Origin: Streptococcus sp. 29887
GTDB lineage: Bacteria; Bacillota; Bacilli; Lactobacillales; Streptococcaceae
Length of the DNA stretch: 64,000 bases
Reading direction: 5' to 3'
Assembly (NCBI RefSeq): GCF_032595075.1
Contig: NZ_CP118735.1
Coordinates: 1,950,001 to 2,014,000 of the forward strand
The position numbers were made by a program, and so were the translations under genes. Below, one piece after another: positions 30,549 through 50,965 of this stretch; the stretch's first letter is position 1; every line of letters starts with the position of its first letter. The notes under the pieces were generated by a model. That model searched no databases and was not told the origin of the DNA. It saw nothing but the letters and a program-made list of their open reading frames with translations.

Positions 30549-31799
30549 CTAAACAAGCATCTTATAGAGAGAATCATTCTCATGAAGATTGATATACTGA
30601 GGATCGAAATCTTCTAGGCGAGAAAGGAATTGGACGTAGTCTTCCTTATTGCCCAGGGCGATCCCGATCAAGACTGGACCTGTACCTTTATTGGCACGTT
30701 TGATGTACTCAAAGCGAGTAATATCATCATTTGGACCTAAAATATCATTTACAAATTCACGCAAGGCACCCGGTCGTTGCGGGAAATTCACTACAAAGTA
30801 ATGCTTAATCCCTTCATAAATAAGAGCACGCTCTTCCATCTCCGGCATCCGGTTAATGTCATTATTGCCACCTGAAATAATACAGCAGATAGTCTGCCCC
30901 TTAATCTTATCTTTGATGACTTCTAAAGCTGCCACAGTCGCTGCACCTGCTGGCTCAGCCACAATCCCGAGTTTTGAATAGAGGTCCAAAATGGTACCTG
31001 AAATCCAACCCTCATCAACACCAACCAACTTATCTACATGCTTGCGAGCCACTTCATAAGTTCTAGCACCAACCTTTTGAACGGCAATCCCATCCGCAAA
31101 CTTATCAATGCTCGCCAATTTGATAGGACGTCCCTTATCAAAGGCTGCCTTCATGGAACGGGCACCGTTAGCTTCAACGCCGATAATCTTGATTTCTGGC
31201 GCGTGTTCTTTGAGGTAGGCAGACACACCTGCAATCAAACCGCCTCCCCCCACTGGCACGAGGATCTGATCAAAACTAATGGTTTGTTCCTGGGCTTCTT
31301 CTATTATTTCATAGGCAACCGTTCCTTGACCCGCCTGAACATGGTCATCGTCAAAGGGATCGATAAAGGTCTTGCCACTCTCCGTAGTATAATCCTGTGC
31401 TGCCTGAGCAGATTCATCAAAAGTATCGCCCACTAAACGAATATCTACATAGTCACCGCCAAAGAAACGAACCTGTCCAATCTTTTGCTGTGGTGTTGTA
31501 ATAGGCATAAAGATGGTTGCTGGTATCTGCATTTCTTGACAAGTATAGGCAACACCTTGGGCATGGTTGCCGGCAGAAGCACAGACCACACCTAGCGCCT
31601 TTTTTTCATCTGATAATTGAGAAATGGCATAGTAGGCTCCTCGTATTTTAAATGAACGAACGCGTTGCTCATTCTCACGCTTGATATAGATGGTGGCTCC
31701 GTACTTTTCTGATAAGTAGCGACTGTAATCTAATGGCGTTCGAACGACAACTCTTTTTAAGACTTCGTAGGCCTGCTCTACATTTTTTGCTGTAATCAT
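30549..31799 (-). CDS. ilvA: Threonine ammonia-lyase (threonine dehydratase) IlvA
   Basis: IlvA turns threonine into 2-oxobutanoate, the entry step of isoleucine synthesis. The 416-residue PLP enzyme has the lysine motif RSFKIRGAYYA (near 48), the glycine-rich PVGGGGLIAGVSAYL, and a C-terminal ACT-like regulatory domain starting near YFVVNFPQRPGALREF. With one ACT-like domain it is the shorter Gram-positive type. It works with the ilvB, ilvN, ilvC and ilvD genes elsewhere in this window but is separated from them by repeats and a terminator. Confidence 0.96.
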   Translation of the reverse strand: MITAKNVEQAYEVLKRVVVRTPLDYSRYLSEKYGATIYIKRENEQRVRSFKIRGAYYAISQLSDEKKALGVVCASAGNHAQGVAYTCQEMQIPATIFMPITTPQQKIGQVRFFGGDYVDIRLVGDTFDESAQAAQDYTTESGKTFIDPFDDDHVQAGQGTVAYEIIEEAQEQTISFDQILVPVGGGGLIAGVSAYLKEHAPEIKIIGVEANGARSMKAAFDKGRPIKLASIDKFADGIAVQKVGARTYEVARKHVDKLVGVDEGWISGTILDLYSKLGIVAEPAGAATVAALEVIKDKIKGQTICCIISGGNNDINRMPEMEERALIYEGIKHYFVVNFPQRPGALREFVNDILGPNDDITRFEYIKRANKGTGPVLIGIALGNKEDYVQFLSRLEDFDPQYINLHENDSLYKMLV

Positions 31800-31950
31800 A
31801 TTTGCACTAATTTCTTTCTATACCTATATTGTATCAATATTTTTTTAAAAACACTAACATTTATGCGCATATTTAAAATATTATTGCGCAATCATTTGAC
31901 ATATGATTGTTTGAGAACCCATTTTCTTTAAATTAAGAAGCAAAATGGGT

Positions 31951-31980
31951 AAAAGAGCTGGTTACATCCCAGCTCTTTTA
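31951..31980 (-). terminator. Intrinsic terminator downstream of ilvC
   Basis: An 11-bp stem AAAAGAGCTGG / CCAGCTCTTTT lies between ilvC and ilvA. It is some 560 bp past the ilvC stop, so the hairpin array in between would be in the ilvC 3' untranslated region. Confidence 0.8.
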
Positions 31981-32079
31981 TTCCTGTATGCTTAGTCCCC
32001 TACACTGCTAACAATCATGTTAGAAAATGCCTAAAAGTATTCAAAAGACCTGAATTCCTTGCCTATCACAGGCCTGTCT

Positions 32080-32541
32080 CACTCTCTTGTTGTCAGGCGA
32101 GGGTTCCAACAGTTTGGGGAACTGTTGGAAGCGGGAAATAAAGCTTGCGACAGCAAGTGTCAACTAGTCCAACCCCGGACTTTCCTCGCTCTCTTGTTTC
32201 TAGGCAAGGGCTAAAACAGTCAAATGGACTGCCTTGCTTTCGTATTTCTAGGCAAGGGCTCTGACAGTTTGGGGAACTGTCAGAGGTTGGAGATGAAACT
32301 TGCGATAGCAAGTGTCTCCTAGCCTATCCGTAGGCTGCCTCGCTCTCTTGTTGTCAAGCGAGGGCGTATGGTCGCTTTCACATTGCTAGGCGACCAGCTG
32401 AAAGAGTCTAGCCCCAGACTCTTTCACTCCCCCGGACTTCCTCGCTTTCTCGTTTTTAGGCGAGGGCTAAAACAGTCCACTTCAACTGCCTTGCTTTCGT
32501 ATTTCTGGGCAAGGGCTAGAATAGCCTATCCGTAGGCTATT
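32080..32541. repeat. Dense array of modular hairpins downstream of ilvC
   Basis: About 460 bp without a gene are filled by short hairpins. Five 26-nt modules start at 32184, 32232, 32338, 32440 and 32489. They have a six-base stem, CCTCGC/GCGAGG or CCTTGC/GCAAGG, around a similar 14-nt loop (TTTCGTATTTCTAG type). Two perfect 11-bp hairpins with TGGGG loops lie at 32104-32130 and 32259-32285, and another with an AGCCCC loop at 32399-32426. CTTGCGACAGCAAG and CTTGCGATAGCAAG, and GCCTATCCGTAGGC (twice), add smaller hairpins. Confidence 0.9.
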
Positions 32542-33753
<1,212 letters not shown>

Positions 33754-44103: not shown

Positions 44104-44314
44104 TATCGTCATTTATTTTTTCTTTTATTACGTCGTTAACTCGCCTTGCCTGATTGAAACAGTCTGGGGGACTGTTTCAAGTCAATGCCAAGAAACAAGA
44201 AAGCATTGACTTATGCCTGCGGCAATTGAGGCGAAGTTGCTTCGCCCAATCTCCAGTCTTCAAAGGTTCCCCGAACCTTTGAAGCGAGTACTAAAAGTAA
44301 ACTAAAAGACTATA
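44104..44314. mobile_element. MITE-like element, copy 1 (with hairpin insert)
   Basis: The ends are inverted repeats: TATCGTCATTTATTTTTTC at 44104 and, read on the minus strand from 44314, TATAGTCTTTTAGTTTAC. It is an inverted, longer relative of the element at 50860-50965. Between the ends are a 27-nt hairpin at 44154-44180 (loop TGGGG), a 26-nt hairpin at 44183-44208, GGCGAAGTTGCTTCGCC, and a second 27-nt hairpin at 44258-44284. No open reading frame is present. Confidence 0.75.
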
Positions 44315-50859: not shown

Positions 50860-50965
50860 TATAGTCTTTTAGTTTACTTTTAGTACTAGGCAACGAGCCG
50901 CAGGCATAACTAGAGTTAGGCAAGGCGAGTTAACGAAGTAATAAAAGAAAAACTAAATGACGATA
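50860..50965. mobile_element. MITE-like element, copy 2
   Basis: A 106-bp element with ends TATAGTCTTTTAGTTTAC (50860) and, on the minus strand from 50965, TATCGTCATTTAGTTTTTC. The inner part has AGGCAAGGCGAGTTAACGAA and AGGCAACGAGCCGCAGGC. It is an inverted, shorter relative of the element at 44104-44314. It lies between the luciferase-like and OYE genes, inside the operon. Confidence 0.75.

Follow-up and report, generated by a model that had tools for sequence, protein, structure and literature searches.

The window (the whole 64,000-nt stretch of DNA analysed here) can be assigned to the Streptococcus suis complex on the basis of its IlvC, which is 100% identical to the IlvC of S. suis strain 614. 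The gap between its ilvC and ilvA genes holds an array of seven hairpins of one type (H, 32077-32514), of which one further copy lies at 44183. On the ilvC-sense strand, the H module consists of a 6-bp stem and a 14-nt purine-rich loop. The structures, given here as read on the window's minus strand (the sense strand of ilvC), comprise, together with palindromes (P) and the two flanking genes:

32542-33564, minus strand: ilvC, named by NCBIfam
32516..32545, minus strand: first palindrome P of the ilvC array, 13-nt arms, 100% complementary
32489..32514, minus strand: H hairpin 1, CCTTGC/GCAAGG
32440..32465, minus strand: H hairpin 2, CCTCGC/GCGAGG
32400..32425, minus strand: spacer palindrome GAAAGAGTCT/AGACTCTTTC beside H hairpin 3, read from the sequence, paired in the predicted RNA fold
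32370..32395, minus strand: H hairpin 3, GGTCGC/GCGACC, absent from the initial annotation
32338..32363, minus strand: H hairpin 4, CCTCGC/GCGAGG
32259..32285, minus strand: spacer palindrome CTCTGACAGTT/AACTGTCAGAG, read from the sequence, paired in the predicted RNA fold
32232..32257, minus strand: H hairpin 5, CCTTGC/GCAAGG
32184..32209, minus strand: H hairpin 6, CCTTGC/GCGAGG, one U.G pair
32104..32130, minus strand: spacer palindrome TTCCAACAGTT/AACTGTTGGAA, read from the sequence, paired in the predicted RNA fold
32077..32102, minus strand: H hairpin 7, CCTCGC/GTGAGA, 5/6 standard pairs, absent from the initial annotation
31950..31980, minus strand: separate terminator-like hairpin between the array and ilvA, 12-nt arms, not picked by the terminator scan
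30549-31799, minus strand: ilvA, named by NCBIfam

The five 26-nt modules reported by the initial annotation were all present at their given starts, and the modules at 32077 and 32370 bring the count to seven. The degree of pairing differs among them: the stem of module 32370-32395 is unrelated to the other stems in the array, and module 32077-32102 is the weakest paired of the seven. The single mismatch that had been reported at 32184 is seen on the pyrimidine-loop strand, and reads as a T.G (U.G) pair on the ilvC-sense strand. A degenerate 26-nt pattern (≤3 mismatches) found six matches in the window, every one within 32077-32514, where 0.21 were expected by chance and none of 100 shuffles gave six; these shuffles, together with reversed-pattern controls, ruled out chance as the origin of the hairpins.

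The first P includes the ilvC stop codon (TAG, 32542-32544) in its outer arm, where TAG pairs with CTA. This stop codon and the spacer palindromes are parts of the same structures as the H hairpins, as are, for the copy at 44183, BOX-type ends. The predicted RNA fold of the whole array reached -191.9 kcal/mol (z = -7.9; 0/100 shuffles as low). Across 13 S. suis-complex loci compared, the ilvC-ilvA gap ranged from 294 to 986 bp and held from none to ten hairpins, and the arrays, where present, started at the ilvC stop. A terminator-like hairpin preceded ilvA in most loci read, with the array present or absent, and pneumococcus and mitis loci without an array retained the IlvC protein end KIYN. 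A BOX element was considered, and rejected, as the content of the larger ilvC-ilvA gap in some pneumococcus/mitis genomes, the 490-bp gap containing something else. No TATAGTC-type end was seen by eye in the ilvC array, a comparison limited to ends of that type, whereas bounding modules may be boxA/boxC or boxE/boxF.

We then characterised stem variation with a loop-only pattern that left the outer four stem positions free, since a scan demanding 5/6 Watson-Crick pairs misses one class of stem described below (tandem-GA) and a looser stem scan admits chance hits. Stretches of the source genome and 14 relatives, rather than whole genomes, yielded 137 distinct 26-mers. Forty-three of these, diverse in sequence, were paired at each of the four outer positions, against a mean of 10.9 and a maximum of 19 when arms were randomly re-paired (2000 shuffles, which overstate independence because the copies are related). 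A further 66 carried a tandem G-A/A-G mismatch at the central two positions, with both outer pairs kept in 62 and co-varying flanking bases; the remainder paired at three positions (14 copies), at two (8), or at one or none (6).

A larger set comprised 218 copies and was in part selected for the GA form. In it, a pyrimidine stood 5' of the tandem GA in 129/129 copies (fully paired class, 32/43), single departures from pairing were G.T in 28 cases versus A.C in 7, and non-GA copies paired in register in 250/316 cells versus 108–131 when the arms were slid. Sheared tandem G-A pairs follow a pyrimidine-G-A-purine rule. The pyrimidine preference at the tandem GA and the excess of G.T over A.C departures thus suggest that the purine-loop strand is the one that folds. 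Predicted energies do not show this polarity, because lone tandem-GA hairpins were weak as RNA (mean -2.22 kcal/mol; complement -1.77) and the complement was slightly more stable in the fully paired class (-8.58 versus -7.83 kcal/mol); predicted DNA folds likewise did not favour the GA stem. The mismatch class holds a geometry that would be able to pair on one strand only, and together the co-variation and the tandem-GA class suggest that selection acts on how one strand folds, in the window the minus strand, sense to ilvC. The initial annotation's proposal of selection on structure is thereby supported: stems change wholly while staying paired, and the opposite outcome, change with loss of pairing, did not occur.

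Nor did the other refuting outcome, a search yielding these copies alone, occur: pattern searches found copies genome-wide and genus-wide. The loop pattern had 37 matches in the source genome (reversed control, 0). Of 12 genomes from S. suis or near it, 11 had 21–50 matches and one had 4 (controls, 0–2). A 22-nt tandem-GA pattern was present in 220/284 Streptococcus species genomes (control, a single hit overall) and in 33/41 genomes reached via named loci. The latter included S. azizii with 102 hits, S. hillyeri with 28, S. varani with 16, S. acidominimus with 15, and two S. pneumoniae with 5 and 3. Within the order, in a sample without other genera of the same family, the pattern occurred in 64/71 Streptococcus versus 19/324 other genomes; these 19 had one or two hits each, with control hits in 8. 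The tandem-GA form is therefore genus-wide in Streptococcus; elsewhere in the order it stays close to background. The S. azizii hairpins, over a hundred genome-wide, sit inside composite repeats (loci L373-L392).

In many loci, the first P starts at the stop codon of the upstream gene. Here P was defined by its inner arms only, as requiring paired outer bases would be circular. A P-type palindrome was carried by 134/2109 long-ORF ends, a share that differs from a genome rate as the ends were drawn from loci fetched for such repeats, and was followed by an H-type loop in 47, spanning 22 C-terminal octapeptides. Where H followed, 44/47 stop codons paired with the far end of the palindrome, versus 30/87 where it did not. 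Pair types in the 44 were TAA/TTA (33), TGA/TCA (6), TAG/CTA (4) and TGA/TTA (1); two of the three unpaired cases look like chance. Many arrays, judged from sequence, thus open with a stop codon, which makes up the outer arm of a palindrome (TAA/TTA, TGA/TCA or TAG/CTA). NCBIfam names four of the anchored genes as RpoD, Era, DapA and ObgE, and further ones are presumably LepA, HU and Upp, named from peptides. The upstream gene was on the same strand as the array in 29/70 cases and on the opposite strand in 4, with no callable gene in 37; among arrays lying between co-directional genes, the two orientations stood at 13 versus 2 (p = 0.007). Most stop-anchored arrays read had no visible inverted-repeat BOX-type ends.

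One anchored gene allowed comparison across the genus. It encodes a 105-aa protein (NCBIfam PRK13678, hypothetical), which we take to be DUF1292, and was found in 279/279 genomes. Among 70 DUF1292-like loci read (the best 30 of 279 and 40 picked for spread), P stood at the stop codon in 42 by test, or in 41 after one locus (L340) was discounted by eye. Five inner stems of this P were seen (AAAGGTCC, AAACGTCC, AATAGCCC, AAACATCC and TACAGTCT), all matched on the far side. A strict H loop followed within 40 nt in 25 of the 42, with variants visible by eye in several more, and in some loci P was repeated in place of H. The sequence was different in the other 28/70 loci and by eye often looked like an ordinary terminator. 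One and the same gene can carry a TTTTGC-type H in some lineages and an ATGAGC-type H in others. Loci L305 and L311 carry P in tandem after the stop codon, with a period of ~22 nt, ahead of any H hairpin.

Outside the array, two elements of the window have bounding modules of ~50 nt with inverted-repeat ends:

44104..44314, plus strand: BOX-type element with one P-H unit, inverted-repeat ends, TA on both sides
44183..44208, plus strand: H hairpin of this element, CAATGC/GCATTG, 10-bp stem including flanks (DNA fold)
50860..50965, minus strand: minimal BOX-type element of 106 bp, ends as in 44104-44314, no H hairpin

The copy at 44183-44208 had been noticed initially and is real, its stem extending to 10 bp in the DNA fold rather than the 8 first given. 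The 3' end motif of these elements occurs at 10 places in the source genome (control, 1). The flanks of 44104-44314 were adjacent, leaving an empty site, in 4/14 genomes searched (G059, G060, G062 and G065); in G059 and G065 the window's left flank runs through one TA and then directly into the right flank. Since exact empty sites have one TA and two TAs flank the element in the window, 44104-44314 is an insertion of ~209 bp with TA target duplication.

A DDE_3 domain (PF13358) was found at 22 loci in 7/12 genomes searched, with no match in the source genome. In three of the 22 (L421, L426 and L429), inward ends 895–898 bp apart match the BOX ends at 13–16 of 18 positions, a likeness whose lower value (13/18) also arises singly by chance. 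Both ORFs of L426 hit NF033545, the model for the IS630 transposase, each as a part and below the whole-protein cut-off. From these ends and domains we infer that an IS630-type transposase probably moved the short end-bearing BOX forms. At L426 (1070-1964), the IS630-type copy seems to split a gene, whose two parts lie one on each side of it. Separately, S. azizii locus L384 has a TATAGTCTTTTAGTT end resembling that of the S. suis BOX, and a BOX element of the source genome near 941500 (L051) is an apparent chimera with exchange points in the P loop and the H loop. Two other sequences were encountered: GCTTTCACATTGTGCAGC recurs at ~10 places in the source genome (e.g. C1:289244, 433287 and 768268) and is probably another repeat or insertion sequence, and the gap in L057 and L065 shares a common ~200-nt insert (GGGAGTGGGAAAGAACTC...), perhaps a further module, which lies next to P-H sequence.

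We favour, with moderate confidence, the interpretation that the H hairpins are modules of genus-wide BOX-type composite repeats built of two alternating hairpins, P and H, whose fold is selected, likely at the mRNA 3' end. P is a palindrome with a conserved tip, and H a hairpin with a conserved 14-nt purine-rich loop. Pairing kept with free stems, a mismatch geometry suited to one strand and the sense 3' position favour selection on the transcript 3' end, and suggest that the folded strand is of use to the cell; most simply, the sense strand would be kept folded as an mRNA 3' end. At a stop codon, P may terminate transcription intrinsically, in full or in part, or act as a 3' barrier. The terminator scan picked P at the DUF1292-like gene in L044 and did not pick it at ilvC, so termination by P would not be general. 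Conservation of the loop suggests that H is recognised, presumably as a further structured element read through that loop. Short end-bearing elements would probably have been moved by an IS630-type transposase, and recombination between copies would spread and homogenise units. Because units recombine (the L051 exchange, the switches of H type), concerted evolution could account for part of their uniformity.

Three other explanations were weighed against selection on the transcript. Palindromes evolving neutrally, their arms held complementary by arm-templated repair or copying with no selection, would explain why perfect arms are common and stems vary freely between loci, and the initial annotation had likewise offered copying through the hairpin as an option. 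Such copying would, however, turn a tandem G-A/A-G into matched pairs; the persistence of this large class (66/137), whose neighbours co-vary and obey the pyrimidine rule, makes arm-to-arm copying very improbable. Hairpins of single-stranded DNA, serving replication or recombination and not RNA, appear improbable. Sheared G-A pairs form in DNA too, and most source-genome arrays point along replication if the origin is near the contig start (judged by eye), whereas the stop-codon position and the sense 3' flank point to a transcript.

It is also somewhat unlikely that these are purely parasitic MITE-like repeats, with hairpins needed as DNA by a transposition or recombination machinery and no use to the host. 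The TA-duplicating insertion, the IS630-type copies with like ends and the near-identical copies at many S. azizii places all speak for parasites, and Croucher 2011 (PMC3049150) argues, in the parts consulted, for parasitic elements without a host role. Yet most stop-anchored arrays read show no transposon-like ends, and neither exact stop-codon pairing over 22 C-termini nor long persistence at one orthologous (DUF1292-like) gene would be expected of parasites alone.

A more specific version of the 3'-end reading is speculative and, taken as a whole, unlikely. The genus-wide 3'-end RNA module would comprise a hairpin with the stop codon as one arm, able to fold (and so to terminate the transcript or protect its 3' end) only while no ribosome occupies that codon and thus reporting on transcription-translation coupling, and H, with its conserved purine loop and tandem sheared G-A stem, as a candidate protein or RNA binding site, with mobile BOX units co-opted at the ends of housekeeping genes. 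That a stop-codon hairpin may sense the ribosome is our own idea; the consulted part of Dierksheide 2026 concerns runaway transcription in Bacilli. If the co-variation, genus-wide spread and anchoring hold, BOX-type repeats, so far treated as parasites found in little beyond pneumococcus, S. mitis and S. suis, would include a 3'-end module common to most streptococci, and the end-bearing forms of S. suis would gain a candidate mobiliser of IS630 type. The initial annotation read the less telling strand and missed both the BOX-type identity and the stop-codon anchoring.

No known Rfam family accounts for the hairpins. The only match at gathering score in the window was Srn266 (RF02822; 40842-40953, minus strand, 129 bits), away from them. 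Two P-H loci match SSRC8_2 (RF02616) below its cut-off (45.3 and 32.2 bits versus 72), and there the P-H unit is an insert in a 56–57-nt loop for which the model has 7 positions; in L246 and L248 the unit lies inside the tip of an SSRC8_2-like hairpin. Titles and abstracts of the literature searched, whose coverage left out many subscription journals, held no description of a tandem-GA stem or a stop-codon palindrome. Petrillo 2006 (PMC1590033), in the parts consulted, describes stem-loops of low-GC Firmicutes that are AT-rich, resemble terminators and lie close to stop codons; P resembles these in its A-run/T-run palindromes just past stop codons and differs in having the stop codon inside the stem, a conserved tip and H next to it. 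Pneumococcal RUP and IS630-Spn1, noted with TA in the consulted part of Delihas 2007 (PMC2229807), share with 44104-44314 a short element, inverted-repeat ends, a TA target and an IS630-type partner; unlike RUP, a simple 107-bp repeat, 44104-44314 carries P-H modules.

The closest likeness is to the BOX-type elements of S. suis. As far as the consulted parts of Croucher 2011 (PMC3049150) describe them, these consist of bounding modules A/C or E/F around inner modules B and D; their smallest form is RepSU1, and 11 boxC are reported in S. suis genomes; such repeats are called almost absent from other streptococci, and pneumococcal BOX arrays are noted as supplying stop codons. Our elements share with this description the species complex, a composite module array between bounding modules of ~50 nt and small end-bearing forms, and both 44104-44314 and 50860-50965 have the S. 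suis BOX-type build when matched by anatomy rather than by box HMMs. They depart from it in the tandem-GA stem, the pairing of the stop codon and the genus-wide spread found here. Beyond Croucher 2011, then, the present analysis adds the co-variation with its tandem-GA class, the distribution across the genus, the anchoring at stop codons, and the TA insertion with IS630-type ends.
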